This document shows positions 3,859 through 31,401 of a stretch of 38,012 nucleotides of DNA, one piece after another. Source of the DNA: Micrococcales bacterium. GTDB taxonomy: Bacteria; Actinomycetota; Actinomycetes; Actinomycetales; WQXJ01. Under the pieces are notes generated by a model that ran no database searches, was not told the DNA's origin, and saw only the letters and a list, made by a program, of their open reading frames with translations. The stretch is taken from the NCBI GenBank assembly GCA_009784895.1, contig WQXJ01000021.1:1-38012 (forward strand), given 5' to 3'. Every line of letters begins with the position of its first letter. The stretch's first letter is position 1. A program made the translations under genes and the position numbers.

Positions 3859-5031
3859 TTAGGCAGTCTCTGCATTACCTGAGCCGTCCGAATCGCCCAG
3901 GTCTCCACCGGGCTTAGGGCCGTCATTGGCGGCGGCACCAACTGAGCGCAAGGCCTGGCGGCGAGCCAAAAAGACCGCGCCACCCACCGCTAGTAAGACC
4001 ACCGCCAGCCAGACCCAGGGCACCGACCAGCCTTTGACCGTGCCGGAAGCCGCGGCCGGCTGGCCTTCAGCACCAAGGCCCACGGCCAGGCCGTTGACCG
4101 TGACCTCAGCTGAGGTTCGCACTAGCGGCAAGACCCCGCTGACCTCAGCTTGCCGCTTGACCTCGCCGCCGGGCAGGATTTCTTCAAGGTTCTGCTCCAC
4201 CTGGCGGGAGGCCCAACCAAACGGCCCTGAAACTGTGACCACTTCGTTCGCCACCAGCCGAGCGTTACCGGTGTTAGCCAGCGTGTAGCTGACGGTGACC
4301 CGCCCGCCGCTGAGCGGGTTGGCCGAGGTATGCGATACCAGTCGCAGGTCAGTCAGCTTCAAACCGGGCTCTAGTTCACCAGAAACCGTGACGTAAGCCC
4401 GCAAAGCCAAGCGTCGGTCCACCCCAATAGTGGCGTCGGTGGTGGCCTCAACCAGCGATGTGACCAGACCACCGGCGTGGTCCCCCGGACGGGCCTCGGC
4501 CGGCACAGCCAAGGTGAAGTCGACCTTGGCCTCTTGTCCGGCCTCAATCCGCACCAGGCCGGAGCCGGTCGACTCGGTGCCGAAGCTGAGCCAGGCACCG
4601 ACGTCTTTGGCCTGGTCCTTGGCTGGCGCCAGGTCGAATTGGCCATCGGGCGTGGTGAAAGCATCGGCACCGTAGATGCGCAGCTCGATTGGGACCAGCG
4701 ACAGGTTTGTTATGACCATGGCGTCGTTGATGACGCTGCCGGGATCAGCGTTGTAGGCGAAGGTGGCTCGCCCGGCGCCCAATTGGCCTTCGGCTGGGGC
4801 CAGCGCCCAGCTGACCTCGCCTGGGTCCGGCGCCGGCGTAGCGGCCCTCATGCCCGATGCCGGCCCTGTCCTTGGCGCCGCCAACTCACCTTGGGCGGCG
4901 GCTGGCGCCATCGTCGCCACGACCAAAGCCGCGGTCAGGGCCACGCCGGCCAGTTGAACCAACCGGCCGGTCCGGCGCCGCTTAGAGGCTGGCAGGGTCC
5001 GCCCGCCGGCCGGAGCTGATTCGACCGTCAC
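3859..5031 (-). CDS. WxLIP-like (DUF916-type) membrane-anchored surface protein
   Basis: 390 residues: an N-terminal signal or anchor segment (about 24-47, ending MAPAAAQ), an extracytoplasmic region, then a C-terminal membrane helix (about 343-362, VWLAVVLLAVGGAVFLA) and a short charged tail. Residues 75-200 resemble the WxLIP peptidoglycan-binding domain. They begin with VSWALAPAEGQ, have Y.ADPG, ITNLS.VPIELRIYG.DAFT and DGQFDLAP, and end PGDHAGGLVTS. Residues 205-320 (LALRAYVTVSGEL, YTLANTGNARL) resemble the second WxLIP domain. In Firmicutes such proteins partner WxL surface proteins, and the gene just upstream ends in a WxL-like domain. The start is GTG at 5031, with CTGGGGG upstream and a 21-nt gap. 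It is the last gene of the haem operon. The family call is by eye. Confidence 0.7.
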   Translation of the reverse strand: MTVESAPAGGRTLPASKRRRTGRLVQLAGVALTAALVVATMAPAAAQGELAAPRTGPASGMRAATPAPDPGEVSWALAPAEGQLGAGRATFAYNADPGSVINDAMVITNLSLVPIELRIYGADAFTTPDGQFDLAPAKDQAKDVGAWLSFGTESTGSGLVRIEAGQEAKVDFTLAVPAEARPGDHAGGLVTSLVEATTDATIGVDRRLALRAYVTVSGELEPGLKLTDLRLVSHTSANPLSGGRVTVSYTLANTGNARLVANEVVTVSGPFGWASRQVEQNLEEILPGGEVKRQAEVSGVLPLVRTSAEVTVNGLAVGLGAEGQPAAASGTVKGWSVPWVWLAVVLLAVGGAVFLARRQALRSVGAAANDGPKPGGDLGDSDGSGNAETA

Positions 5032-5052
5032 CTGGTGCCCCCAGCCGGGCGG

Positions 5053-6816
5053 CTAGCCGACCGCCGTAATGGTTAGCATGCCGGTGTACTGGCCGGCCGG
5101 CGTGGTGGTGGGAATCGACAGGTTCAGCAAAGCGGAAAGCTCAGCGCTACCCAGCGGGTGGCCGGCTGAGGAGTAGGCCAAAGTCCGTGGGTCTTTCAGG
5201 CCAACTCCGGGCTGGACGGTGTCACCGGCAACCGCCCCAACGGTGTTGGTGCCAATGGCCGGCACCCAGCCCAGGTATTGGGCGCCAAAACTATCGGTGC
5301 CTTTGACAAAGTCGGTCACCTGGCCGTTTAGAGTCCAGGCGGCCGCGCTGGAGCGGGTATCAGTCACGGTAATTGAGGGCAGCGGGCCGGCGGCGGTAAA
5401 GAAGGCACCGCTTTGACTGGCTGTGCCTAAGGAAACCGCCGGAGTGGAGGTGATGGTCCAGGAGAACTGGCCGGTGCCCGGATCGTCCGGATCTGGCACC
5501 TCGACGTCAATCGGGATGCCCGGTTCGAAGCTGACCGGTGTGTAGGTTTCGAAACTGGCCACATTGGCACCGCCACCGCCGTAGGTGTAGATGCCATAGT
5601 TGCCGCCGGCCACGCCGGCTGCGTCGGCCGCCTCTTTGGAAACTGACAGTGTGGCTGTGAACGAGCCGTCTGACCTGAGCTCAATGGCACCTTGGGTGGG
5701 ACCACCAATAGTGGCCATGTCTGCGGCCAAAACGGCCCAGCGGACATCAGCATTGGGCCGGGTGGCGGCACCGGCGCCCTCGGTTGGTTTCCAAGTCGCG
5801 GCGTACTTGCCAAAGGTGACGTAAACGCCGCCTGATTTACCCATCAGCGGCGGCCGGGTCGAAATGGCCATGGCCGGATCAAAACCGGTGCCTTCGACTG
5901 TCACTTCGGTGGCGCCGGCCTCAGAGAAGACCGTCCGCGAGACTGTTACCGCTGGCGCGCCCCCACCGCCGGAGGCGGTCCAGCTCAGGCTCACTGGCTT
6001 GGGCTGGTGGTTGGCGGCCGAGCCGTACCAATAGGAGCTTTGACCGGTTAGCTGTTGTAGGTCAACCAGCGACTGGGGGAAGGCCCCGGTGACCGAACCA
6101 CCGGGTGTGGTGACGGTGACGTCGGCGTAGCGCGGTGTCAGGGTTAGCTGGCCGGAGGCTGTCGACAGGTCAACGCCAGCGAAATCGGCCAAGGTGATTG
6201 CGCGTGGGCTGATGGGCTGCCAGGCCACGCCGCCGCTTTGGGAGGCCTCGTAACCAGAACCGGTGGCGGTCAAAGAGGCCGTACCGTCTGCCCGCACGGT
6301 TAGGGTCGGGTTGGCCGCACTCCAATAGGTCATGCCACCGTAGAAGACCACCGAGAACGAACCGGTCCAGGAGATCGTGGCTGTCCCGGCGTCCTTGTCG
6401 ATGGTGCCGGTACCGCCGCTTAGGACCACCCGGTTGGCGGTGGTTGATCCGGCTGTCGTGGTGACCGGCGCACCGGTGGCGTCTTGGCATTTGGTGGCCC
6501 AGGTCGGGGTGACCCAGGTGGTTCCAGTGCCCGGTTTTTCGACCTTGACGTTGCCTTCGCTGGACTTGTAGAAACCGTCGGCTTCAGTCCAAAAACGCGA
6601 CGAGCCGGCGTCGCCAGCCGTCCCGGCCATCAGGAAGTTGCAGCCGCCGGCATGCGCTCCGGCGCCAACTTGGTCGTTGATAGCCCAGGTCAGCTGGACG
6701 TCGGTGACCTGCTCGGCGGCACCAGCCACCGAGCTCATCCAGGTCACCCCGGCTAGGGCGAGGGCACCGGCTAGAGCGAGGCTCAGGGCCTTACGGGGAG
6801 ATAACGAGAGCTTCAA
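5053..6816 (-). CDS. HtaA-type haem-binding protein with WxL-like C-terminal domain
   Basis: 587 residues with a signal peptide (1-33, ending SVAGAAEQ). An HtaA-like domain spans about 40-280 (LTWAIND, FSVVFYGGMTYW, FPQSLVDLQQLTGQSSYWYG) and carries cysteines 60 and 110. A beta-domain follows at about 288-432 (VEGTGFDP, GGVYVTFGKYAATWKP, SFETYTPVSF). The last domain (about 450-587) resembles WxL: ITVTDTRSSAAAWTLNGQ includes W494-T-L496, and the end reads PAGQYTGMLTITAV, where the usual second WxL tryptophan is replaced. The start is TTG at 6816: AAAGGAA lies 7 nt upstream, and the TTG overlaps the previous stop as TTGA. An upstream extension is open but has no better start. Expected role: haem capture at the wall, passing haem to HmuTUV. 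HtaA is well supported by context; WxL is inferred. Confidence 0.8.
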   Translation of the reverse strand: MKLSLSPRKALSLALAGALALAGVTWMSSVAGAAEQVTDVQLTWAINDQVGAGAHAGGCNFLMAGTAGDAGSSRFWTEADGFYKSSEGNVKVEKPGTGTTWVTPTWATKCQDATGAPVTTTAGSTTANRVVLSGGTGTIDKDAGTATISWTGSFSVVFYGGMTYWSAANPTLTVRADGTASLTATGSGYEASQSGGVAWQPISPRAITLADFAGVDLSTASGQLTLTPRYADVTVTTPGGSVTGAFPQSLVDLQQLTGQSSYWYGSAANHQPKPVSLSWTASGGGGAPAVTVSRTVFSEAGATEVTVEGTGFDPAMAISTRPPLMGKSGGVYVTFGKYAATWKPTEGAGAATRPNADVRWAVLAADMATIGGPTQGAIELRSDGSFTATLSVSKEAADAAGVAGGNYGIYTYGGGGANVASFETYTPVSFEPGIPIDVEVPDPDDPGTGQFSWTITSTPAVSLGTASQSGAFFTAAGPLPSITVTDTRSSAAAWTLNGQVTDFVKGTDSFGAQYLGWVPAIGTNTVGAVAGDTVQPGVGLKDPRTLAYSSAGHPLGSAELSALLNLSIPTTTPAGQYTGMLTITAVG

Positions 6817-8099
6817 CGGTCGATTCCTTTCGGTGTGAACCTGAACCAGCCTCGCCGCCAGGCGACCAGGCCGAATCCGATGGTAACTATGAGGGTTAGG
6901 AGTGCAATTTGGGCTGCCAGGCGCTGGGCTCGGCGTTCGGCTGTGGCCGTTGGTACCAGGGCTTTGGGGCCGGCCTGGTACATAACCGACTCGGCCGAAT
7001 ACGGCCAAGAGTCGTCTTCGGCGGGCTCGGTGGCGCCGCCGCCAGCACCGCCGCTACCGCCTCCGCCGCCTGTGGTGGTGGAGTTGAAGGCGGTGGCGTC
7101 ACCGGCGCCGCCACTGTTGGCGCCGTCGACCGGCGGCGGTTTGTTGATCGACTTATCGGCATCCCAGGAGACATAGATGGCGTCAGGTGGTTTGCGGTAG
7201 TCGTGGTTGTTGCCGGTCGAATACCAGTACTGGCTCAGGCCAGTGCCTTTCTGGAAATTGACGAAAGCCTGCGGCCAAGCGCCGGGGTGAGTCGAGGCCG
7301 CCCCCAGTTTCTGGTCCGCCACGCCGCTTAGGGCGACACCGGCGTAGCTCGGTTTGAGGACAACGCCTTTGTCTTCCAGTTTGACACCGGTGGCTTGGGC
7401 CACCACCAAAGTGGTCTCTGAGAATTGACGCCACTTAGACGGGTCGTCCCGATCCGAGCCCCAGCCACCGACGGTGGCGGTCAAAGTGGCCCCACCAGCG
7501 GAGACCTTCAACACCGGGTTGCGCAGCCAGAAGTAGACCAAACCGTCGTAGAACACCACTGTGGCTGCGCCTTGCCAGGCGATTTGGGCTTGGCCGGTTT
7601 TGGTGTCAAAGTTGCCGTTGCCTTTGACGATCCGCATTTGGTGGTCGGTGAAGGTGCCGCCCGGTTCGCCTTTGACCGCCTGGCCATCTGGTCCTAGGCA
7701 ACGCTGGCCATAGGGCACCGCCGCCCCCGAGCCACCCACCATCGAAACGTTGCCACTGGTCGAGTGGTAAAGCGAGGCACCGTTCTTTTCCCAGGCGCTG
7801 GCGCTGCCGGCGTTGCCGTTGGTGCCGGGCCTGCCGGCCATGACGAAGTTGCAGTTGCCAAAGTAGGTTTTGCCCCTGACCTCACGGTTGATCGACCAAG
7901 CCAGCTCGGCGTTGGTGGCCTTGCCACCGACCGGGTCGTCAGGCCCTTGGGTCGGGCCGGGATGGGCGTCAGGTACTTCCACGGTCACGGTGATGGGGCC
8001 ATGGTCTGGGTCATCGGCCGCCCAGGCCAAATCGAGGCCACCAATAGCTAGGCCTAGGGTCACACCGAGCGCTATGACGGTGCCGCCAGGCGCCCTCAT
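6813..8099 (-). CDS. HtaA-type haem-binding protein with C-terminal membrane anchor
   Basis: 428 residues: a signal peptide (1-27, ending LAWA) and an acidic, proline-rich linker (28-60). The HtaA-like domain (about 63-325) has LAWSINREV, GNCNFVMAG, TVVFYDGLVYFWLRNP and WPQAFVNFQKGTGLSQYWY. A Gly-rich linker (335-365) leads to one membrane helix (about 394-416) and a basic tail (AWRRGWFRF). The HtaA part is clearly paralogous to the next protein downstream: the same order of motifs, and cysteines at matching places (83 and 134). Corynebacterial HtaA-family proteins bind haem at the surface; the same role is expected here. Starts with ATG at 8099, overlapping the previous stop as ATGA. Confidence 0.82.
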   Translation of the reverse strand: MRAPGGTVIALGVTLGLAIGGLDLAWAADDPDHGPITVTVEVPDAHPGPTQGPDDPVGGKATNAELAWSINREVRGKTYFGNCNFVMAGRPGTNGNAGSASAWEKNGASLYHSTSGNVSMVGGSGAAVPYGQRCLGPDGQAVKGEPGGTFTDHQMRIVKGNGNFDTKTGQAQIAWQGAATVVFYDGLVYFWLRNPVLKVSAGGATLTATVGGWGSDRDDPSKWRQFSETTLVVAQATGVKLEDKGVVLKPSYAGVALSGVADQKLGAASTHPGAWPQAFVNFQKGTGLSQYWYSTGNNHDYRKPPDAIYVSWDADKSINKPPPVDGANSGGAGDATAFNSTTTGGGGGSGGAGGGATEPAEDDSWPYSAESVMYQAGPKALVPTATAERRAQRLAAQIALLTLIVTIGFGLVAWRRGWFRFTPKGIDR

Positions 8100-9451
8100 G
8101 AGGGGACCTCCTGGGTGTCGTCAAGACCGGACACCCGGGTTAAGGGCGGGTATTTGGGTCGGGGCGCGGGCGGCGCTGGCCTGGCCGGCGGCAGTGTTGG
8201 CGCCGACCGCGTTTCAACCGACGTCCGCTCCGGTGCCGCCGGCGCGGTTGGCGGCTCGGGATTTGCCGCGAGGGCCGGTGGGGCCACTTTGGCCTTGGAT
8301 TTGGCCGGTTTTCGGGCCGATGCCGGTGGCCCAGTCCCGCTGCGGCCAGTTTGTTGGCGTTTGCGTTCAGCCCTGGCCTTTGACCGCCTCACCCCGGCGG
8401 CAACCAGCATGAACACCACCATCACGACCAGAGCACCGGCCGCCGCCACAATCGCTGTCTCAAGTGGAGTTAGTCCCTCAGCCTGGGCGGCCTCGGCCTC
8501 GGCCTTTTTGGCGGCCTCTTCGGCGCTGACCAAAGCCGGGTCACGTCTGACCGTGACCTCGGCTTCTGGTTTGGCCCCGGAGGAGGCTCCCTCCAACCTC
8601 AGCACATGGCTGCCCACGCGCAGATCAGGATCAAGCGGCACCGTGCCAGCGACTTCGCCGTAGCGTCCGGCTGTCAACGGTCCTACCGTCACTAAACCGT
8701 CGTCGAAAACGGCTATGACCTGCTCGCCGGGCAAGAAGCCCCGGGCGGTGAAGCCAAGGGCGTGGCCGGCCACCGCCGTAGTTGGGTCGACGCCCAAGGT
8801 GACCTCGACCGGTGGTGCCGCGCTGGCCTCGGGCGCCTGGCTGGCCCCAGGCGAAGCTGTGCCACCGGTCCCACCGCTGGTCTCACCACCGCCAAAGGAA
8901 ACTGGAGTGAAGGTTTCGTTAGCCGCGTTGACCACCGCGTGGGCGCCTATTGTGATGATGCCGCATTGGCTGGTGCGGCAATCGACCGTGACGTTTTGGC
9001 CGGAGGAGTTGACCGTTTGGAAGGTCGGTCCCGGTACCACCAGTGTGGTTGACCAGGTGCCATTGGCGTTGAGCAGACCACCGTTGGCCGTGTCCCCGGT
9101 GGTCGAACCGGGAAAGGCGACGAATTTCTCATAGCCGGCGTTGTCCTTGGCTTGGGAGTCAGGCACATAGAGGTAGTCCTTGCCGCTGACCCCGCCCATC
9201 GACGGCCGCCACGACCCGGTGACTGTGCCAAACATGACGTAAATGCCGCCAAAGCCGTTTTGGATCGACTGGAAACCACTGCCCGATAGCTGCAAGGTGG
9301 TTGGCCCGTCGAGCGCAGCCTGCGCCTTTCCATCAACTCCGGACACGGCCACGCCGGCGGCGGCATGGGCCGGCGGGGCGGCCAGCACAGCCAAGGGCAG
9401 GGCGGCAAGTGCGGCCACGGCCGCCCAAATCCGGATCAGCTTTGGTCTCAT
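8096..9451 (-). CDS. Membrane-anchored surface protein of the haem operon
   Basis: 451 residues with a signal peptide (1-31, ending PPAHAAA). The first domain (about 35-190) has LQLSGSGFQSIQNGFGGIYV, MFGTVTGSWRPS and ETFTPVSF. It matches the central domain of the WxL-HtaA protein in this operon, so the two are related by duplication. A second beta-domain (about 215-305, PTTAVAGHALGFTARGFLPGEQV) looks Ig-like. Then come an Ala/Glu-rich helix, one membrane helix (about 335-358) and a roughly 90-residue cytoplasmic tail rich in Pro, Ala and Lys. There is no HtaA domain proper. Its place between hmuV and two HtaA genes suggests a role in haem relay or in organising the receptors. Starts with ATG at 9451 (ATGA overlap with hmuV). 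Confidence 0.65.
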   Translation of the reverse strand: MRPKLIRIWAAVAALAALPLAVLAAPPAHAAAGVAVSGVDGKAQAALDGPTTLQLSGSGFQSIQNGFGGIYVMFGTVTGSWRPSMGGVSGKDYLYVPDSQAKDNAGYEKFVAFPGSTTGDTANGGLLNANGTWSTTLVVPGPTFQTVNSSGQNVTVDCRTSQCGIITIGAHAVVNAANETFTPVSFGGGETSGGTGGTASPGASQAPEASAAPPVEVTLGVDPTTAVAGHALGFTARGFLPGEQVIAVFDDGLVTVGPLTAGRYGEVAGTVPLDPDLRVGSHVLRLEGASSGAKPEAEVTVRRDPALVSAEEAAKKAEAEAAQAEGLTPLETAIVAAAGALVVMVVFMLVAAGVRRSKARAERKRQQTGRSGTGPPASARKPAKSKAKVAPPALAANPEPPTAPAAPERTSVETRSAPTLPPARPAPPAPRPKYPPLTRVSGLDDTQEVPS

Positions 9452-10227
9452 ACCGTCCCCCGCCTAGGCACAACCATGCGGACGCCGGTTTGAGGGTGGT
9501 CGAGCACATCAACTTTGTGTTGATAAACATTGGACAGCGATTCGGCCGTCAAGACTTGTTCGGCCGTACCGCAACCGGCCAGTTTGCCCCGGTCAAGTAA
9601 CACCACTTGGTCGGCCCAGGCCGCCGCCAGCGAAAGGTCATGGACCACCGCTGCCACCGCTCCACCACCGGCGGCCTCCCCGCGGGCCAAAGCCATAACC
9701 ATTTCCTGGTGCCTAATATCGAGGGCCGCGGTCGGCTCGTCCAGCAGCAAAACCCGACCCCGTTGGACCAAGGTACGGCCAAAGGCCACACGCGCCTTTT
9801 CCCCACCAGACAGAGTTGGAAAACGTCGCTCTGCCAGGGATGAGGTGTCTGTACGCGCCATTGCCAAGGCCACTTCGGCATCGTCCATCTCTGCTTGGTC
9901 GGTCCCATGCCACGGTGCCCGGCCCATCCGCACAATGTCAAGCACCGTGAAGGGGAAAGCCACAACGTTTTCCTGGGCCATAACCGCACGCAGGCGGGCC
10001 AGTTTCGTGACGGAATACTCGCCTATGGGCCGGCCGTCGTAGGTAACTTGCCCTCCGCTGGGCGTCAGGTCGCCGGCCAGCAGGCTCAGCAGGGTCGACT
10101 TGCCAGCACCGTTGGGGCCAACCACCACTGTCACTTGGCCTGGTTTGATCTCCAGGTCAACACCATCAAGCACAGTGAAGTTGTCCACCCGGTAGGTCAC
10201 CGCCTGGGTGGCCAGGACGCCGTTCAT
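9448..10227 (-). CDS. hmuV: Haem ABC transporter ATP-binding protein HmuV
   Basis: Cytoplasmic ATPase that powers haem (or siderophore-type) import through HmuU. The 259-residue protein has Walker A GPNGAGKST, a Q-loop in VMAQENV, the signature LSGGEKARVAFGR, Walker B RVLLLDEPTAALD and an H-loop (VVHDLSLAAAWAD). The layout is that of HmuV/FecE-type subunits. I chose the ATG at 10227 because it overlaps the hmuU stop as ATGA, like its neighbours; a TTG six nt upstream is possible. Substrate is inferred from the HtaA genes in the same operon. Confidence 0.9.
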   Translation of the reverse strand: MNGVLATQAVTYRVDNFTVLDGVDLEIKPGQVTVVVGPNGAGKSTLLSLLAGDLTPSGGQVTYDGRPIGEYSVTKLARLRAVMAQENVVAFPFTVLDIVRMGRAPWHGTDQAEMDDAEVALAMARTDTSSLAERRFPTLSGGEKARVAFGRTLVQRGRVLLLDEPTAALDIRHQEMVMALARGEAAGGGAVAAVVHDLSLAAAWADQVVLLDRGKLAGCGTAEQVLTAESLSNVYQHKVDVLDHPQTGVRMVVPRRGTV

Positions 10228-11324
10228 GCCCAACCCCCTGCCCTGCGGCGGGTGCGGCGCAGCAGCCAGAAGAAAAACGGTCCGCCTACTAGCGCGGTCA
10301 GCATGCCAATGGGCAGTTCAGCGTAGGCCATAGCGGTGCGGGCAATCAGATCAGCGGCCATCAACATAACGGCTCCGCCCAAGGCCGAGGCTGGGATAAG
10401 CCAACGGTGGCCTGGTCCGGTGACCAGGCGAACCAGATGCGGCACCACCAGGCCAACGAAGGCGATAACACCACAAAAGGCCACGGCTGCCCCTGTCAGC
10501 ACGCCAACTAGGACAATGCCACCGAGCCGCAGGCGTTCCACATCCACGCCCAGGTGCCGAGCGTCTTTCTCGCCTAAAGCCAAAAGGTCGAGGCGGCGGG
10601 CCATCAGCCAGGCGCCGGCCACGCCCACTAAGACCAACGGTGTGACCAGAGCCAGGTAAACGCCACGGGTGCCATTAAGGGAGCCAAGTTGCCAAAAGAC
10701 GATCTCCTCACCACCGCGCCGGTCCGCCATGAAGGTGGAAAAGGCGATCAGGGCGCCGGCCACGGCGTTGACGGCCACGCCCATTAGCACCAGTGTGACA
10801 ACCTCGGTTTTCCCACCGGACCGGGACAGGGTGTAGAGCAGGAAAGTGGCGCCCAAGGCTCCGGCAATGGCGGATATGGCCACCGCCCAGGGACCCAGCG
10901 AGCCGGCCCCAAAAGCGATAGCCGCGCAGGCCACTGCGGCCGCACCGGAAGACACGCCAACCACTCCTGGCTCAGCCAGGGGGTTGGTGAAAACCCCTTG
11001 CATCAGGGCACCAGCGGTGGCCAGAGCCATTCCGGCCAGGGCGGCCAAGGCCAGCCTGGGCCAGCGAATGGTCCATAGCACCGCGTCAATTGTGGCGGCC
11101 CCAGGATCATCGCTGGCCGCAGCTGATGCGCCGCCAAAGTGATGAACCAGCGAGGTCCAAAGCTGTCCTGGCGTCACCCGGATCTGCCCCAAGGCAGCCG
11201 AGGCCACGGCCAGCACCAGAACGACAATGCCCAGGCCAACCACTAGGCCAACGGCCTGGCGCCGGCCTTGAGCCAGGCGGGCCAGTTGCTCGGGCGCCAG
11301 GGCTGGCAGGGCGGTCTCGGTCAT
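10224..11324 (-). CDS. hmuU: Haem ABC transporter permease HmuU (FecCD family)
   Basis: Inner-membrane channel subunit of the importer. The 366-residue protein fits the FecCD/BtuC family, with about ten hydrophobic helices. Hallmarks include TIRWPRLALAALAGMALATAG, the QGVFTNPLAEPGVVGVSSGA stretch, FVGLVVPHLVRLVTGPGHRW and the C-terminal GPFFFWLLRR. It normally dimerises and docks two HmuV subunits. Starts with ATG at 11324, overlapping the hmuT stop as ATGA. The family also carries Fe-siderophores and cobalamin; haem is chosen from context. Confidence 0.92.
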   Translation of the reverse strand: MTETALPALAPEQLARLAQGRRQAVGLVVGLGIVVLVLAVASAALGQIRVTPGQLWTSLVHHFGGASAAASDDPGAATIDAVLWTIRWPRLALAALAGMALATAGALMQGVFTNPLAEPGVVGVSSGAAAVACAAIAFGAGSLGPWAVAISAIAGALGATFLLYTLSRSGGKTEVVTLVLMGVAVNAVAGALIAFSTFMADRRGGEEIVFWQLGSLNGTRGVYLALVTPLVLVGVAGAWLMARRLDLLALGEKDARHLGVDVERLRLGGIVLVGVLTGAAVAFCGVIAFVGLVVPHLVRLVTGPGHRWLIPASALGGAVMLMAADLIARTAMAYAELPIGMLTALVGGPFFFWLLRRTRRRAGGWA

Positions 11325-12454
11325 GGCTTCGGGTCGGGGGTGTAAATGGCAGCCGCCATGGCCAACAAGACCTCATTGGTGGAGGGGCCAAAAGCCAGGA
11401 TTTGGGTGTCATCCATGTCGACAACCCGCCGGCGCTGGCCAGCCGGTGTGGCGGCGATGGCCGGTAGGCGCTCGAGTAGGCCGTCGACCCCGCCCACCGA
11501 ATCCAGTCCGTTGGTCATCATCAAGATAAGGTCTGGGTTCATTGCCACCAGGCCCTCGTCGGTGACCGGACGCATGCCGTCCCAGCCAACCTCACCGGCC
11601 ACGTCAATTCCGCCAACCGCTTCGATCAATGAGTCCGTGCCGGAATCCTTGCCGAAGACGTAGTAGATGCCAGCCTCGCCGCGGACGTACAAGAAAATGA
11701 TGCGCAACCGCATGGCCGCGTCCTCAGGCACAGCCTTGGCGATAGTGGCCTTGGCCTGGTCGACCGCCTCGGCTGAGCGCTTTGCCAGGGCTTCGCCCTG
11801 TTCAGGCAGGCCTAGTGACCCGGCTATCTCTTTGATCAGGTCGCTCATCGATTCGAGCGAACGCTCAGAACTAACCAACACCACTGCGATGCCTGCCTCG
11901 CGCATTTGCTCAATCACAGCGAAGGGGCCTAGCGAGGTGTCGGTGATGATGACAGTTGGGGCTAGCTCCAAAATGGCCTCAGCCGAAAGGCTATTGCCGT
12001 TTTGGGTCACCCTTGGTTTGTCTTTGATACCGGGAAAGTCAGAGGAAGTGTCGCGGCCCACGACGTTATCGCCTAAGCCCAAGCCATAGACGATCTGGCT
12101 AGTGGTGCCGTAAATGTCCAGCGCCAGGATTCGGCTAACGTCGTTGACGGTGACTTCGTCCCCGCCTGAATCAGTCACAGTCACCGGCAACTTTGGTGTC
12201 GGTGCCTGGCTGACCGGCACAATTTCGCCCAGGTTCAAATTGGCCGTCGAGGGGCCTTCATAATCCTTCGGGTTGGTCATGGCCTGGTTCGGATCAAATA
12301 CCACCGAGCCGGTTGCCTCAACCTCTTTAGGGCTGGCGCAACCGGACAACAGCAGACCGCCCAGAGCCACTAATGCCAACGTCTTGACCAGTGGTGATGG
12401 GGCAGGTCGGTGGGGGCGAGGGGAGAACACGGCCAAGGTCGGGGGTGGGACCAC
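11321..12454 (-). CDS. hmuT: Haem-binding lipoprotein HmuT
   Basis: Substrate-binding lipoprotein of the importer. The 377-residue protein has a lipoprotein signal with lipobox LLLSGC. The periplasmic-binding-protein type III fold follows (SRILALDIYGTTSQIVYGLGLGDNVVGRD, ILELAPTVIITDTS, a long linking helix, then NPDLILMMTNGLDSVGG). The open frame extends further upstream. I chose GTG at 12454 because AAAGG lies 7 nt upstream and it leaves a sensible basic n-region. It is the first gene of the operon; the 301-bp gap up to rng should carry its promoter. Haem ligands cannot be fixed by eye. Confidence 0.88.
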   Translation of the reverse strand: MVPPPTLAVFSPRPHRPAPSPLVKTLALVALGGLLLSGCASPKEVEATGSVVFDPNQAMTNPKDYEGPSTANLNLGEIVPVSQAPTPKLPVTVTDSGGDEVTVNDVSRILALDIYGTTSQIVYGLGLGDNVVGRDTSSDFPGIKDKPRVTQNGNSLSAEAILELAPTVIITDTSLGPFAVIEQMREAGIAVVLVSSERSLESMSDLIKEIAGSLGLPEQGEALAKRSAEAVDQAKATIAKAVPEDAAMRLRIIFLYVRGEAGIYYVFGKDSGTDSLIEAVGGIDVAGEVGWDGMRPVTDEGLVAMNPDLILMMTNGLDSVGGVDGLLERLPAIAATPAGQRRRVVDMDDTQILAFGPSTNEVLLAMAAAIYTPDPKP

Positions 12455-12755
12455 TCGATGACCTTTCACCGTCAGGCGGCCGAGCCGCGAATTGCTTGGG
12501 CCAACCCGCCAGGCATTGTCCAACCGGGAGATGAATCAAGGCTGCGGCGCAATTGACAAGGCCCAATACTGCCCCAGGGGGCCGTTCCAGGCAAGCAACC
12601 GACCTTGCCCGTGAAGGCATCGACACAAAACATGCACATGACGGGCGCTTTTGTGCCTTCTGAATTGGTGGATATCACCAATCACTTTCTTGGCCAAACT
12701 GGGCCAATTCCGGCGCGGGCTAGGTCGGCGACTGGCGCCTGTTTTGGCGAATCGC
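12455..12755. other. Intergenic region upstream of hmuT
   Basis: 301 bp between the rng stop and the hmuT start, both on the minus strand. No convincing ORF is present. It holds a 19-bp inverted repeat (12664-12682), a weak TTGGCC/GGCCAA stem near 12691-12708, and a promoter-like pair on the minus strand (TTGTCA, 17 bp, ATTCAT, near 12533-12561). I found no match to the classic DtxR/IdeR iron box by eye. Confidence 0.5.
12664..12682. promoter_or_regulatory. 19-bp inverted repeat, candidate operator for the haem operon
   Basis: ATTGGTGGATATCACCAAT has 7-bp perfect arms (ATTGGTG and CACCAAT) around a 5-nt centre. It lies about 210 bp upstream of the hmuT start and 75 bp past the end of rng. 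Symmetry and AT-richness in a GC-rich region make it a plausible repressor site for an iron- or haem-responsive regulator. No regulator is identified. Confidence 0.35.
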
Positions 12756-18442: not shown

Positions 18443-18463
18443 GTGCCCGCGAGGGCACTTTTT
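18443..18463 (+). terminator. Rho-independent terminator-like hairpin in the cydA leader
   Basis: GTGCCC-gcga-GGGCAC is followed directly by TTTTT (18459-18463). It points along cydA, 37 nt before the GTG start. Since the gene to the left is transcribed away, the only transcript it can stop is that of cydA itself. This makes it an attenuator candidate. A competing stem (GGGGC-cctgc-GCCCC, 18420-18434) lies just upstream, and its GGGC could instead pair with the GCCC in the terminator's left arm. Confidence 0.6.
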
Positions 18464-18499
18464 CCAATACCGTACCGACCCCTCACCGCGGAGGTGCAC

Positions 18500-20056
18500 G
18501 TGCAAGCGCTTGATCTCGCCCGATGGCAGTTTGGCATAACCACTGTGTACCACTTCATCTTCGTGCCGTTGACCATCGGTCTGACGCCCCTGGTGGCGAT
18601 CATGCAGACTGCCTGGTACCGGACCGGCAAAGACGAGTGGTACCGCCTGACCAGGTTCTTCAGCAAGTTGTTGCTGATCAACTTTGCGTTGGGAATTGTC
18701 ACCGGCATAGTCCAAGAATTCCAGTTCGGCATGAACTGGTCGGAGTACTCCCGTGTCGCGGGAGATATCTTCGGAGCGCCGCTAGCCATGGAAGCGCTGG
18801 CAGCGTTCTTTATCGAATCCACCTTCCTGGGGATTTGGATCTTCGGCTGGGGCCGCCTCTCTCGTGGCGTCCACCTGCTGTCGATTTGGCTGGTGGCCAT
18901 TGCGACCAACCTCTCAGCCTTCTTCATCCTGGCCGCAAACTCCTTCATGCAGTACCCAGTGGGGGCGCAGTTCGACGCCGCCGCACAGCGGGCGCATCTG
19001 GATTCCTTAACTGATGTCTTGTTCTCCAAGTTGTCAATGTCCACCTTGTGGCACACCATCTCGACGGCCTTCTTGGTGTCCGGCACCTTCGTCGCCGGCG
19101 TCGCCGTGTGGTGGGTTGTCAAGTCAGTGCGGGCCGGCAAAGAAGAGCAGGCCAAGGTCTACCGCAAGGCCGGCGCCTTTGGCTGCTGGGTCATCGTTGT
19201 GGCTGGCTTGTCGATTGGCCTCTCGGGCCACCATCAGGCTCAGATCATGGTCGAAGTCCAACCAACCAAGATGGCAGCGGCAGAGATGCTTTGCGTCACC
19301 CCAGAAAACGAGGGCGTCGGTTTCACCGTAGCGGCCTTTGGGGCCTGCAAGTTCGATGAGAACACAGGCCAATTCATTGATGAGGGTGTGACTCGGATCA
19401 TTGAGATCCCCAAGATGCTGTCCATACTGGCTCACGGGACCCCGCTCAAGCCCCTCGATGGGGGTGATCAGCCGGTGATGGGTGCCGACAAGGCCGCCGC
19501 GGCTTTGGATGCCGCCTACGCCGAGGCCGGTGCCACTGTCGAGGCGAACCCCTCGAAGTTCATTCCCAACCAGATGGCAATTTTCTGGACATTCCGCCTG
19601 ATGATCGCGTTCGCGCTGTTCAGCGGCGTCCTGGCCGTCATTGGCCTGCTGGCGCTACGCGGCGGACGAGTCTCCGGTTCTTCAGGCCTGAAGGCTTGGG
19701 CGGCGTTGTCGCTGCCAATGCCCTTCATCGGGGCTGCCATGGGCTGGATCTTCACCGAGATTGGCCGCCAACCGTTCATCGTCTACCCGCGCTGGGACGT
19801 CTTGCCTGAGGCAGGCGGGTGGCCGGCGCCAGATGTCGGCCTGTCGCTCCAAACCGGTATGGCCAACTCGCCGGTGGTGACCGGTGGCACCGTGGCCTTG
19901 TCCATGACCGTTTACACACTGCTTTATCTGACCCTGGCCGTGGCCTGGTTCTACCTGATGAAGCGGTATGTAGCGAAGGGTGCGCCCTTCGAAGAGGCCG
20001 TCATCGAAGAGAAGTCAGACTTGGATGATTCCAAGCCTCTGACCTTCTCCTACTGA
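18500..20056 (+). CDS. cydA: Cytochrome bd quinol oxidase subunit I
   Basis: Membrane subunit that oxidises quinol and carries haems b558, b595 and d. The 518-residue protein keeps the ligands by position: H18 in TTVYHFIFVPLTIGL (b595), H185 in STLWHTISTAF and M368 in FWTFRLMIAF (b558). GDIFGAPLAMEALAAFFIES is also intact. The Q-loop region (about 245-360) is of moderate length; GRQPFIVYPRWDVLPEAG follows before the last helices. The start is GTG at 18500 with GGAGG at 18490-18494, 5 nt away; upstream in-frame ATG (18443) lies inside the terminator hairpin and is rejected. Followed by cydB after 20 nt. Confidence 0.95.
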   Translation: MQALDLARWQFGITTVYHFIFVPLTIGLTPLVAIMQTAWYRTGKDEWYRLTRFFSKLLLINFALGIVTGIVQEFQFGMNWSEYSRVAGDIFGAPLAMEALAAFFIESTFLGIWIFGWGRLSRGVHLLSIWLVAIATNLSAFFILAANSFMQYPVGAQFDAAAQRAHLDSLTDVLFSKLSMSTLWHTISTAFLVSGTFVAGVAVWWVVKSVRAGKEEQAKVYRKAGAFGCWVIVVAGLSIGLSGHHQAQIMVEVQPTKMAAAEMLCVTPENEGVGFTVAAFGACKFDENTGQFIDEGVTRIIEIPKMLSILAHGTPLKPLDGGDQPVMGADKAAAALDAAYAEAGATVEANPSKFIPNQMAIFWTFRLMIAFALFSGVLAVIGLLALRGGRVSGSSGLKAWAALSLPMPFIGAAMGWIFTEIGRQPFIVYPRWDVLPEAGGWPAPDVGLSLQTGMANSPVVTGGTVALSMTVYTLLYLTLAVAWFYLMKRYVAKGAPFEEAVIEEKSDLDDSKPLTFSY

Positions 20057-20076
20057 GGCGAGGTGAAGGAGTAACA

Positions 20077-21675
20077 ATGTTTATTGAGACATTCGCCGGG
20101 GCTGCTGTAGTGGCAGAACCCCTCGACACCGGCACTGCTGCCGGCGCCTTGATCAGACTGCTTCACGGTCTAACCGCATCCCCAACCACACTGCAATTGC
20201 TGTGGTTCGGCCTAATCGCCGTGCTTTGGATCGGCTACCTGGTGCTCGAAGGCTTCGACTTTGGTGTGGGCATGTTGCTGCCCATTCTGGGTAAGAAGAA
20301 CAACGAACGCCGGGCCATGCTGTCATCGATTGGTCCGTTCTGGGATGGCAACGAGGTTTGGCTGCTAACCGCTGGTGGCGCCACCTTTGCCGCCTTCCCG
20401 GAGTGGTACGCCACGCTGTTTAGTGCGGCCTATCTACCCCTGTTCTTGATCCTTATGGGTCTGATTGTGCGCGCGGTGGCCATGGAGTACCGCGGCAAGA
20501 TCAACAGCCCAGGCTGGCGCAAGCTGTGGGATGGCTGCATCATCTTCGGTTCGTATTTGCCCACCTTCCTGTGGGGCGTGGCCTTCACCATCCTGGTGGT
20601 TGGTGTTAAGGCTGCCGTCAATCCGGCCCAGCTTGGCCCAACCAAGATTCTCTATGACGGAACCTTCTGGGATCTGGTCTTCACCGGTAACGGCCTAGCC
20701 CTGCTGGGTGGCGTTTGCTTGGTAGCCCAGTTCTTGACGCACGGTGCTCTTTTCACCGCGCTGAAGACCGAGGGCGACCTCAGGGCCCGGGCGGAGAAGC
20801 TGGCCCCCAAGTTGGCCATTGTCGGCACTGTGCTGGCGGCCGCCTGGGGTCTGTGGCTAGTCACCATGTACACCAACAACAAGGCCTTCACATGGATCGT
20901 ATTCATTGTGGCTGCCGTGGCGCTGGTGCTGGTTATCCTGACCTCGATGGCCAAGAAGTTCGGTCTGTCGTTCACCTTCATGACCGTGGCCTTGGCCTCG
21001 GTGGTGGTGTTCATCTTTGGCGGCTTGTTCCCCAATGTGATCAACGCTCAAAAGGTGACCATTAGGGGCGGCGACCTGCTGACTGATCCGGTTCTAGCTG
21101 CGGTTATTTATCCGCCGCTGCTGGAAAACGTTGACGGAGATACCGCCCAGGCCATTGCCGATGGTCTTGGCGTTGGTGTTGAGGACGTGGTTGCAGTGGT
21201 CCAAGGTGGCGGCGCCAAACTGGACGGCTGGTCGGAAGACGACATTGGCAAGCTGATCGGAGACGATGGCAACCTGTTGGGCGATGGCGCTGACATCACC
21301 AAGTTGATTACCAACAACCTGAGCTCACTTGACGCCGTGATTGGCAACGCCAACGTGGTACTGGGTGAAGGCGGCTTGGGCGTCGAGGGCTTCCTCGGCC
21401 AGCTCGAGCTGGCGCCCGATGACGCCAAGGCCAAGTACGACGGCCTTGACGGTGCCGAGCACACGGGCTTTGCCCCGATCGACGGCACCATTACCGGCCT
21501 GCCGATCGCAGCATCGTCTTCAACGCCAACCACGTTGAAGCTGATGACGATCGTGGCCTGCATCATGACACCGATCGTGTTGCTCTACCAGGCCTGGTCG
21601 ATCATCACCTTCAAGCGGCGTGTCAACCCCGAGCGGATCCCTGAGGATACCGGTCTGGAACCCGCCAAGAAGTAA
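20077..21675 (+). CDS. cydB: Cytochrome bd quinol oxidase subunit II with a large loop insertion
   Basis: 532 residues, where CydB proteins usually have about 330-390. Residues 40-323 match the family: LLWFGLIAVLWIGYLVLEGFDFGVGML, IGPFWDGNEVWLLTAGGATFAAFPEWYA and the later helices up to FGGLFPNVI. The final helix (PTTLKLMTIVACIMTPIVLLYQAW, about 484-507) is also present. Between them, residues about 325-475 are extra: an acidic, glycine-rich segment (VEDVVAVVQGGGAKL, WSEDDIGKLIGDDGN) with no Cys or His-rich motif. Family topology would place it outside the membrane. There is also a roughly 38-residue N-terminal extension. Start ATG at 20077 has AAGGAG 5 nt upstream. The frame is open throughout, so this is not a sequencing break. 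Confidence 0.93.
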   Translation: MFIETFAGAAVVAEPLDTGTAAGALIRLLHGLTASPTTLQLLWFGLIAVLWIGYLVLEGFDFGVGMLLPILGKKNNERRAMLSSIGPFWDGNEVWLLTAGGATFAAFPEWYATLFSAAYLPLFLILMGLIVRAVAMEYRGKINSPGWRKLWDGCIIFGSYLPTFLWGVAFTILVVGVKAAVNPAQLGPTKILYDGTFWDLVFTGNGLALLGGVCLVAQFLTHGALFTALKTEGDLRARAEKLAPKLAIVGTVLAAAWGLWLVTMYTNNKAFTWIVFIVAAVALVLVILTSMAKKFGLSFTFMTVALASVVVFIFGGLFPNVINAQKVTIRGGDLLTDPVLAAVIYPPLLENVDGDTAQAIADGLGVGVEDVVAVVQGGGAKLDGWSEDDIGKLIGDDGNLLGDGADITKLITNNLSSLDAVIGNANVVLGEGGLGVEGFLGQLELAPDDAKAKYDGLDGAEHTGFAPIDGTITGLPIAASSSTPTTLKLMTIVACIMTPIVLLYQAWSIITFKRRVNPERIPEDTGLEPAKK

Positions 21676-28692: not shown

Positions 28693-31401
28693 CTAGCCGA
28701 TTGGGCCTCCGCCGGCATGGCAACGCTCCGACTTGCCGGGTGACAGTTCGGCAAAAGAGCAAATCTGCCCTAGGGCCGAGTCAACTACGACAACGTCGGT
28801 TAGCGTCGCGTTGCCGGTGTTGGTGACGGTGTAGGTCCACCAGACCGAAGTGCCGGCCCTGACGGTTGAGCCACTTGGCAGCGGTGTGGCATTGGCCAGG
28901 AGCGAATCGGCAGAAACTGGCGGGTTGGCGTTGGTCCAGCCTTGTTTGGTCAGGGACAGCGAGGAGACTGTGGAGTCTTTGACCTCCAGCCCTAAAACCA
29001 AGCGAAGGCCGTCGAGGTTCGGGTCGGCTGACTGGGCCTTGAACGTGACTGTACCGGTCCGGTCCCCTAGCGGCAGACCGTCATCGGCCACCGCCAGGTT
29101 GAAGCCGGTCTGGTCCCAGGCCGTGCGTAACTGAACTGCCCCACCTGCCAGGGACACGTCCGGCGGAGCGGATTCAAGCCTCAGCCCCACGGTGGCCTGG
29201 GCGGAAATGTCCCGGAACAGTGACAAAGCGTCTTTGACCGCCTCACCTTCCGTCACGGTTAGCGACGAAGCAGATAACCGCAACGGATTGGTGAAGGTGA
29301 CAGATTTGGTGGCCGGCACTGCTCGCGGGTTGGCGTTACCGGCCTTGTCTTGCACGGCCCCGGCCAGAAGGGTCAGGTTGACAAGACCAGAGTCATCGAC
29401 CGCGACCGTGACCAGATAGCGTCTGGCTGACAGGCGCTCGACCTGGCTGACCCGCGGGTTGTAGGCGGTCGAGCCGGTCAGGGAAAAAGCCTCGGCCCCG
29501 GGCGTGGTGGCCAGTACTTCGTTGGTTTCGAGGTAGTAGCGGATGAAGCGGCGTGAGGTCTCGAGGTCTTGGGTCACAGCTGGCGCCAGGGTCACCGTTG
29601 GCGGCATTGTGTCCGCCATGCCGCTCAAGGCGAAAGTCCGGCTGAACTGGGATGACTGGACCTGTGGTGTGGCCAGGTTGAAGGTCTGGGTGCGCAAATA
29701 GCCGGTCGTTGAGGGCAATGGAATGACGCCAGTGCCCTCGGTACCGGAACCAACCCGGATCGAGCCCAAATAGACCTCAGCCGTGCGGCTGGCTGTCCAG
29801 TAGATGTCGACCTCCACTGGCGCGCTCACAGCCCGGCCGTAGGTGCCAAGGTTGGTGGTGTTTTGAACGACCTTGACTTGGGCCAGACCGCCTGGCTGAT
29901 GCGTCACCGAGTCAATGATCCAGGGCACAATCTTGCCGTTGGTGGCTTCAAAGGAGTTAGACACCATCAGGTAGGACTGATGCGATGACTCCTCGAATTT
30001 GGTGGTGAGGTCGGTGCGAGTGGCCGTACCAAAGGTGTTTCGTTTGATTGTCGAAGCCCGCGACCTGGCGTACATGTCGACCGAGGCCCACTGGAAGCCG
30101 TCGAAATCGTTGTCTTCAACGTAAACGTTGGATGGTTTGGCCCCCTCGGCCGCATCGTGGGTCAGATCCAAGGCGCCGGAAAACAAGAAGGCATCGGCCT
30201 GGATCGGTTTGGCGGTGGCGTCAAAGGTGTTGTGGCGCACTTCGATGCGTCCGTTGGCCAACTTGGCTTGGGCCATACGCACCACCGCCTGCCAGAACAT
30301 CTCAGTGGTGGAGCTGACCGGGTTGTTGTGAAAGCGGTTGCCCACCAGGGAGATGTTTTTCAGGTCGCCAACGTGGTTGAGTGAGATGGCCGCGTGTCCG
30401 CCGGCATGACCGGTGAAGTAGCTGTCCCTGATGGTCAAGCCCTCGATGTTGACGCCGTTGTAGGCCACCAGGCCGCTCGAATTACAGGCCGTGCCGGACA
30501 TGTAACCGCAGGCGCCTCCGGCCGAGGTCTGGTCAAACCGGACCCGCTCAACAGTTAGGCCCACAATCGGCTGGGACAGGCCTTTCGAGTCGAGCACAAT
30601 TGCGCCATAGCCGGAGGCGGCCGATGTCCCGTCCTCCTCGACCGCTGGGTTGAGCCGCCCAACTGTCAGGTCGCGCACTGTGACGTTATCCGCGCCGGGG
30701 TGGATCAGGATGTAGCGCCGGGCGGCGTCAGAATAGCTTTGACGCGCGTCGCCTTTGTCGACCACCAGGCCAGAAGCGCTCGGGCTGGCGTAAATGGTGG
30801 CGCCCACGCCAAAGACGCGAGTCAGGTTGCGCAGCGTCACATTGGGGGCGTTAACCGAAAAGGCCACGCCAGCGACCGGGTTGTAGCGGTCTGGCGTCAG
30901 CTCGTAACGATTGTCTAGGTCGATAGTTAGACCCGGCGCTGTGATTGTGAAGTAGGCGCCAATGTCCCACAGCGGCCGCCCGGTCACGCTAGTACTCGCC
31001 ATCCAGCCTGAAGCCGTGGTGGTGGAGGTGACTGAGGCGGTGGTGCCACCTTCCCGGAAGGTCGTAGCCACGGTGATGACCACGTCTCGTGGATCACCAT
31101 TGGCGGCCAGTGCGTTGGCCTCTTCTATGGCGGCCCGCAAAGTGCACTGCCCGGCGGTCGCAGTTGAACAAATGCCGTTACCCGGCGCGGCGTCTGAACC
31201 GAGAAAGGCGGTCGAGTTGACCTCTAGATACAGCTTTTCCTGCGAGGTTGCCTGGGTCGCTGGCGCCGCCTGGGCGGTCGAAGCGGTCTGAACGCCCCAG
31301 CCTGGCATCAACGAAATACACAGGGCGCCAACGGTCGCTGCACCTAGCCAAGCGGTCCATCCGCGCCTAGCTCCTATTCTTGGTCCCCTGCGTCCAGTCA
31401 C
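28693..31401 (-). CDS. Secreted CSLREA-type beta-helix protein, C-terminus probably truncated
   Basis: 902 residues. A signal peptide (about 14-45, ending TASTAQAAPA) leads to a CSLREA-like motif (QCTLRAAIEEANAL, about 85-98). A long right-handed beta-helix-like region spans about 130-470 (repeated pattern NVTLRNLT, NVTVRDLT, IVGLTVERVRF, IEGLTIRDSYF, ISLVGNRFHNN, IEVRHNTF, VYVEDNDFDGF). Beta-sandwich regions follow, then a DUF11-like domain (WWTYTVTNTGNATLTDVVVVDS). The protein stops at LSPGKSERCHAGGG, in the middle of that domain, and no wall anchor or membrane helix follows. Role unknown; an adhesin or carbohydrate-binding surface protein is plausible. Start GTG at 31401 lacks a clear ribosome site. 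Confidence 0.75.
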   Translation of the reverse strand: MTGRRGPRIGARRGWTAWLGAATVGALCISLMPGWGVQTASTAQAAPATQATSQEKLYLEVNSTAFLGSDAAPGNGICSTATAGQCTLRAAIEEANALAANGDPRDVVITVATTFREGGTTASVTSTTTASGWMASTSVTGRPLWDIGAYFTITAPGLTIDLDNRYELTPDRYNPVAGVAFSVNAPNVTLRNLTRVFGVGATIYASPSASGLVVDKGDARQSYSDAARRYILIHPGADNVTVRDLTVGRLNPAVEEDGTSAASGYGAIVLDSKGLSQPIVGLTVERVRFDQTSAGGACGYMSGTACNSSGLVAYNGVNIEGLTIRDSYFTGHAGGHAAISLNHVGDLKNISLVGNRFHNNPVSSTTEMFWQAVVRMAQAKLANGRIEVRHNTFDATAKPIQADAFLFSGALDLTHDAAEGAKPSNVYVEDNDFDGFQWASVDMYARSRASTIKRNTFGTATRTDLTTKFEESSHQSYLMVSNSFEATNGKIVPWIIDSVTHQPGGLAQVKVVQNTTNLGTYGRAVSAPVEVDIYWTASRTAEVYLGSIRVGSGTEGTGVIPLPSTTGYLRTQTFNLATPQVQSSQFSRTFALSGMADTMPPTVTLAPAVTQDLETSRRFIRYYLETNEVLATTPGAEAFSLTGSTAYNPRVSQVERLSARRYLVTVAVDDSGLVNLTLLAGAVQDKAGNANPRAVPATKSVTFTNPLRLSASSLTVTEGEAVKDALSLFRDISAQATVGLRLESAPPDVSLAGGAVQLRTAWDQTGFNLAVADDGLPLGDRTGTVTFKAQSADPNLDGLRLVLGLEVKDSTVSSLSLTKQGWTNANPPVSADSLLANATPLPSGSTVRAGTSVWWTYTVTNTGNATLTDVVVVDSALGQICSFAELSPGKSERCHAGGGPIG

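Follow-up and report, generated by a model that had tools for sequence, protein, structure and literature searches.

An HtaA-like receptor with a WxL-like C-terminal domain beside a WxLIP gene in an actinobacterial Hmu operon

Background

In the NEAT/Isd haem relays of Firmicutes, surface receptors feed an ABC importer, which is the kind of relay that we propose for the locus described here; their receptors differ in having an unrelated fold and in being anchored by sortase. The closest described receptors are HtaA, HtaB, ChtA, and HbpA of corynebacteria, which the present locus resembles in its CR fold (Z 11–14), its Hmu neighbourhood, and a secreted receptor that would act before HmuTUV. The corynebacterial receptors are described as either held by a C-terminal helix or released, whereas the receptor P0002 of this locus has a WxL-like domain in the place of the helix. 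The haem site of the corynebacterial proteins is made by an axial tyrosine together with a helper histidine or tyrosine (PMC12494546).

Reviews of WxL proteins describe mainly Firmicutes, which hold more than 91 per cent of the known sequences (PMC9772566). For comparison we used the DUF916-DUF3324 systems of that phylum, represented by the Csc clusters of L. plantarum, the E. faecium loci, and the PDB structures 9i1y and 9i25. As in these clusters, a large protein of the C-terminal-WxL type here adjoins a WxL-interacting protein (WxLIP) with two Ig domains and a membrane helix. Unlike in these clusters, only one WxL motif is kept, no separate small WxL gene is seen in the operon, the pair lies inside an importer operon, and the cargos of the module look like nutrient-acquisition proteins. 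The original prediction held the joining of HtaA to WxL to be new, and our literature search agrees in that it found no paper with both HtaA and WxL; subscription journals were mostly outside its scope, and an earlier mention is possible.

The operon and its importer

The window, which is the whole stretch of DNA that was analysed (38,012 nucleotides), is contig C21 of a 2.36-Mb draft genome (a MAG, 96.5 per cent complete). It holds a seven-gene operon on the minus strand, with HmuTUV at the start and the receptor–WxLIP pair at the end, in which neighbouring genes either overlap or are separated by no more than 21 bases. In operon order, the genes are:

11321–12523, minus strand: HmuT, haem-binding lipoprotein of the importer (E = 3.9e-82 to C. 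glutamicum HmuT, 5az3; Peripla_BP_2)
10224–11324, minus strand: HmuU, permease (Pfam FecCD, 297 bits)
9448–10233, minus strand: HmuV, haem ABC transporter ATPase (NCBIfam equivalog NF010068, 300.5 bits, cut-off 261)
8096–9451, minus strand: P0004, secreted or membrane Ig-like protein related to domain D2 of P0002 (own profile across loci)
6813–8099, minus strand: P0003, HtaA-like receptor that carries a C-terminal membrane helix of its own (at about 6858–6926; hydropathy 2.28 in the tail)
5053–6816, minus strand: P0002, HtaA-like receptor with a C-terminal WxL-like domain and without a membrane helix of its own (TTG start at 6816)
3859–5031, minus strand: P0001, WxLIP (Pfam WxLIP_PGBD and fold)

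The positions of the last three genes are as originally predicted. A haem-type substrate protein, a FecCD permease, and a haem ATPase are all present, and because HmuT matches its C. glutamicum counterpart and HmuV lies above the NCBIfam haem-transporter cut-off, the operon is, on these matches, one for haem import. Since P0004 follows HmuV in most of the complete hmu-type loci examined, it may represent a so far undescribed part of such haem systems; its match to NCBIfam chromo_anti (E = 7e-4) is under the cut-off of that family.

Some further observations concern the surroundings of the pair. In HmuT, Tyr240 and Arg242 of the C. glutamicum haem site are retained and the axial His141 is replaced by Thr. 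Elsewhere in the window, positions 28693–31401 encode a secreted protein of 902 aa with the look of a right-handed beta-helix and Pfam DUF7507 at its C-terminus. The closest named loci to P0002 come from 'Bifidobacteriaceae bacterium' MAGs, which, judging from their isolate names, we take to be termite-gut bins.

The receptor domain of P0002

The listed reading frame of P0002 starts at 7008, and we prefer the TTG at 6816 because it overlaps the stop codon of P0003, has AAAGGAA ahead of it, and opens a signal peptide. The resulting protein has 587 aa, and the tryptophan previously numbered W494 is residue 558 of the longer frame. Its AlphaFold2 model (mean pLDDT of 90) comprises three domains:

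5959–6720, minus strand: D1, HtaA/CR-fold domain (fold matches and hmmsearch alignment to 6jsa)
5485–5958, minus strand: D2, Ig-like middle domain (relatives inside an HtaA protein of locus L020)
5056–5484, minus strand: D3, WxL-like C-terminal domain (hhalign to Firmicutes WxL)

The structural matches listed for the D1 part of this model include HbpA (9bcj, Z = 13.8), HtaA CR2 (13.1 and 12.7), HtaA CR1 (11.8), and HtaB (11.1), well above the unrelated rows. Single-sequence Pfam and NCBIfam scans of P0002 and P0003 gave no useful match, PF04213 (HtaA) found nothing in the genome to which the window belongs, and a PDB sequence search with P0003 found nothing relevant. The relatives are more telling: an orthologue of P0002 (G002) exceeds the Pfam HtaA cut-off (33.0 bits vs 24), and proteins with the same C-terminus and the same neighbour in G043 and G025 reach 61 bits. 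A D1 profile retrieves canonical HtaA proteins at 1e-8 to 1e-55, and hhalign aligns the D1 family with canonical HtaA at 90.8 per cent (reversed control, 0.1 per cent). The predicted HtaA domain is supported by way of its relatives and its fold, and the receptor fold of D1 is HtaA/CR. P0003 carries the same domain (E = 1.3e-84).

The middle domain has relatives within a canonical HtaA protein of 1473 aa (L020, genome G075), in which two D2-type domains stand in tandem between HtaA repeats (E = 1e-50), and 8 of 41 D2 members have a weak Pfam Neocarzinostat match. As Ig-like domains, P0004 and D2 are related to each other, and both weakly resemble the enediyne chromoproteins of the neocarzinostatin family.

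By alignment, His119 of D1 (6652–6654) lies where the axial tyrosine is expected, Val114 replaces the propionate-contacting serine of helix alpha-1, and Tyr223 (6340–6342), in the beta6–beta7 loop, takes the helper position, aligned with the position of C. glutamicum His434. Besides the two substitutions, two conserved cysteines and a greater length (about 255 aa) set the domain apart from the corynebacterial CR domains. Of 169 D1-type domains, 88 have Tyr in the axial column and 72 have Phe, and because of this split canonical haem ligation is, as far as the alignment goes, not a family trait. Axial Tyr/Phe also failed as a marker of WxL-linked versus helix-anchored receptors, as both residues occur in both classes.

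These features bear on whether D1 would bind haem at all. The WxL-like/WxLIP pair could be real, and D1 could bind a haem protein, as HbpA does, or some other ligand, with haem that is released spontaneously reaching P0003 or HmuT. HbpA is the top fold match of D1, tied with HtaA (Z = 13.8 vs 13.1); the axial tyrosine is a histidine in P0002, at a position unconserved among its relatives; and in C. diphtheriae the CR domains take up passively released haem, with HbpA engaging haemoglobin (PMC12494546). Against this, the helper tyrosine is invariant among the D1-type domains (169/169) and a YW motif near the propionate-tyrosine position is kept in 168–169 of the 169; ChtA, which P0002 resembles in this respect, likewise employs a helper tyrosine (PMC12494546). 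P0003 also keeps, by alignment, a tyrosine (Tyr79) at the candidate axial position, and the operon encodes a haem importer. We consider a D1 that does not bind haem itself a serious possibility, although one that falls short of an even chance, and continue with P0002 as a secreted CR-fold protein that would receive haem or a haem protein.

Fate of the imported haem

Ferrochelatase, porphobilinogen deaminase, HemQ, and haem oxygenase were not found in the 96.5 per cent complete genome (no match to PF00762, PF01379, PF06778, or PF01126, with positive controls detected), and because the MAG is not fully complete these absences are no proof. The genes for cytochrome bd, cydAB, lie in the window at 18443–21675. 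The genome thus appears to be that of a haem auxotroph with a haem-dependent oxidase. Because core genes of haem synthesis and haem oxygenase are missing and cytochrome bd is present, imported haem would probably be used whole, as a cofactor. The corynebacterial Hmu/HtaA systems serve iron supply (PMC12494546), and import of haem as an iron source would bring this operon into line with them. We find that reading unlikely in view of the same gene absences (haem degradation being searched by PF01126 alone) and of the oxidase; in addition, no DtxR-type box was found within the window.

A WxL-like domain and its WxLIP neighbour

D3, the last 143 residues of P0002, is an Ig/pilin-like domain at the C-terminus of a secreted protein that adjoins a WxLIP gene. 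The W-T-L motif is retained at about 5329–5337 and the motif 'PAGQYTGMLTIT' is also present; the second Trp-x-Leu motif is gone, with LTIT in its place. Pfam WxL (PF13731) does not match P0002 itself, matches 5 of 12 D3 homologues (best E = 1.6e-4), and has matches in 3 of 119 actinobacterial genomes, all under the cut-off. When D3 was aligned by hhalign with genuine WxL domains from five Lactobacillales plasmids, the probability was 81.6 per cent, against 0.1 per cent for the reversed decoy and at most 0.7 per cent for decoys and cross-pairs; a second pair of alignments gave 62 per cent. The blocks that align, in register, are the two motif regions: VTDTR..AWTLNGQVTDF and LSIPTTTPAGQYTGMLTIT, of which the second has lost its motif tryptophan in D3. 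A PDB sequence search with the D3 profile found nothing relevant, the best 50 matches listed for the three-domain model of P0002 do not include the 9i25 WxL chain, and the D3 region of that model matches fimbrial subunits (CFA/I pilin domains) at Z 7–9. D3 is, by profile comparison, a remote WxL homologue, which we call WxL-like rather than canonical because the second motif is missing and P0002 lies under the Pfam WxL threshold. The WxL-like C-terminus originally proposed is supported by the W-T-L, 'PAGQYTGMLTIT', the profile–profile match, and the matches of homologues, but has neither the second motif nor a Pfam match of P0002's own.

The neighbouring P0001 has a visible N-terminal signal, followed by three features:

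4465–4788, minus strand: PGBD-like first Ig domain (Pfam WxLIP_PGBD)
4018–4365, minus strand: second Ig domain, in place of the WxLIP HBD (Pfam NPCBM_assoc, 31 bits; within the match to 9i1y)
3925–4017, minus strand: C-terminal membrane helix (helix 292–322 of the model; hydropathy 2.34)

WxLIP_PGBD (DUF916) matches P0001 at 32.6 bits, above the curated cut-off of 27.3, and also matches all 36 of the aligned homologues. The model of P0001 (pLDDT 89) superposes on the Enterococcus faecium WxLIP 9i1y with Z = 18.0 (239 residues, rmsd 5.1) and on 9i25_C, a WxLIP bound to a long WxL, with Z = 17.7, compared with 11.5 for the next unrelated row. A PDB sequence search with P0001 found nothing relevant. 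The identification of P0001 as a WxLIP, and so as the probable partner of P0002, is borne out by the PGBD match and the fold. WxLIP_HBD (PF11797) is not among the Pfam matches of P0001 or the families listed for the 36 homologues, so that the second Ig domain differs from that of Firmicutes WxLIPs in matching NPCBM_assoc instead; the fold over both Ig domains nonetheless matches 9i1y. A membrane helix had been expected only in the HtaA paralogue; P0003 does have one and P0002 has none, but P0001 has one too.

Linkage between D3 and WxLIP genes

We collected 72 named loci, with flanks of up to 10 kb, by their similarity to P0002. A WxLIP gene lies next door in 42 of the 44 loci that bear D3, the other two ending at a contig edge, and in none of the 28 loci without D3. 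Loci with both come from Microbacterium, Cellulomonas, Pseudoclavibacter, Herbiconiux, Labedella, Brachybacterium, Tessaracoccus, and others, and most of them also adjoin HmuTUV and P0004; those of Bifidobacterium, Brevibacterium, and Nocardioides have neither D3 nor a WxLIP gene. Because similarity to P0002 defined this sample, its counts are biased, and a count over 149 genomes of the order is the better measure: 38 have both D3 and a WxLIP, one has a strong WxLIP only, and 110 have neither (P about 1e-34, a value that ignores shared ancestry). In the same genomes, a WxL-like domain lies within 500 bp of 69 of the 85 strong WxLIP matches.

Membrane helices are distributed in a complementary way. 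D3 proteins end right after D3, and 43 of 44 have no C-terminal helix, whereas such a helix is present in 40 of 42 WxLIPs and in at least 70 of 98 HtaA-like proteins without D3. The gene pair proposed for an actinomycete, HtaA–WxL-like and WxLIP, is found, with near-absolute linkage, but it is unique neither to this organism nor to haem.

Proposed mechanism

We propose that secreted P0002 is kept at the cell surface by P0001, which would bind D3 and is itself predicted to be fixed in the membrane through its C-terminal helix, so that P0002 would need no membrane helix of its own. The captured ligand would be handed to the membrane-anchored paralogue P0003, then to HmuT and HmuUV. Taken as a whole, with a surface HtaA-type receptor held through WxL-like/WxLIP contact, a relay to HmuTUV, and haem as a cofactor, this model is in our view likely to be right.

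P0001 also matches the periplasmic pilus chaperones CfaA, CsuC, and FimC in fold searches, and D3 matches their pilin clients, so the WxLIP might serve mainly as a chaperone for the folding or secretion of D3 proteins, with D3 itself binding the wall. Soluble chaperones, however, have no membrane helix such as that of P0001, and D3 proteins have no other anchor; we judge a chaperone without a permanent anchoring role to be rather improbable. The locus resembles chaperone–usher pairs (CfaA with CfaB/CfaE) in that P0001 matches the chaperone and D3 the pilin domains in fold, but has no usher, a membrane-tethered partner, and a Gram-positive envelope; the likeness is one of fold, and we do not claim homology. 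It is very improbable that D3 is a generic pilin- or Ig-like domain with convergent WxL similarity and that P0001 acts elsewhere, as might be argued from the sub-threshold Pfam results and the low fimbrial Z scores of D3, because the profile match picks out WxL specifically, both motif regions being in register, P0001 has the WxLIP fold at Z = 18, and D3 and WxLIP genes are almost absolutely linked and co-occurring. We retain P0001 as the probable membrane-bound holder of P0002.

A probable wider display module

D3-type domains are fused to other proteins besides HtaA. Identified by reading the sequences by eye rather than by profile matches, these cargos comprise, among others, metallophosphoesterases, alkaline phosphatases, GH20, GH53, esterases, and one protein each resembling a glycerophosphodiesterase, an X-Pro peptidase, and M64. 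The fusions to secreted enzymes (L135, L137–L149) nearly all adjoin a WxLIP gene. A second WxL-like/WxLIP pair, with an Ig-repeat cargo, occurs in the window's own genome (L134, contig G000:C39, 164–3116). Public annotation already labels such an actinobacterial gene 'DUF916 domain-containing', and a copy on a Clavibacter plasmid is annotated as 'hypothetical' beside 'DUF916'. Because phosphatases, glycosidases, esterases, and peptidases all seem to be cargos of the same module, WxL-like/WxLIP seems to be a general and widespread actinobacterial display system, of which haem capture would be one cargo. The host-adhesion role proposed for Firmicutes WxLIPs is unsupported here, as the cargos resemble enzymes for nutrient use and soil genera account for many of the carriers.

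A study of 2023 predicted that a hairpin strand of the WxLIP is inserted to complete the WxL sandwich (PMC10599100). Strand complementation of this kind would fit the CfaA and CFA/I matches, a fold analogy at Z 7–11. More tentatively, and with somewhat less than even confidence, we suggest that WxL-like/WxLIP may work as a general plug and socket at the surface, with strand complementation like that of chaperone–pilin pairs, the WxLIP being a permanent, membrane-tethered socket for interchangeable nutrient-acquisition cargos, and that in this case it would supply haem to a gut bacterium that is a predicted haem auxotroph and bears cytochrome bd.

The operon joins HtaA haem capture and WxL/WxLIP clusters, which were known from different phyla. 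If the model is right, actinobacteria outside Corynebacterium hold haem receptors in a way other than by a membrane helix or release. WxL/WxLIP would then be suggested as a general device for displaying nutrient enzymes, and not only as a host-adhesion device of gut Firmicutes. The model predicts partners for dozens of genes annotated as 'DUF916' or 'hypothetical' in cultivated Microbacterium, Cellulomonas, and their relatives, and is therefore testable in these genera.
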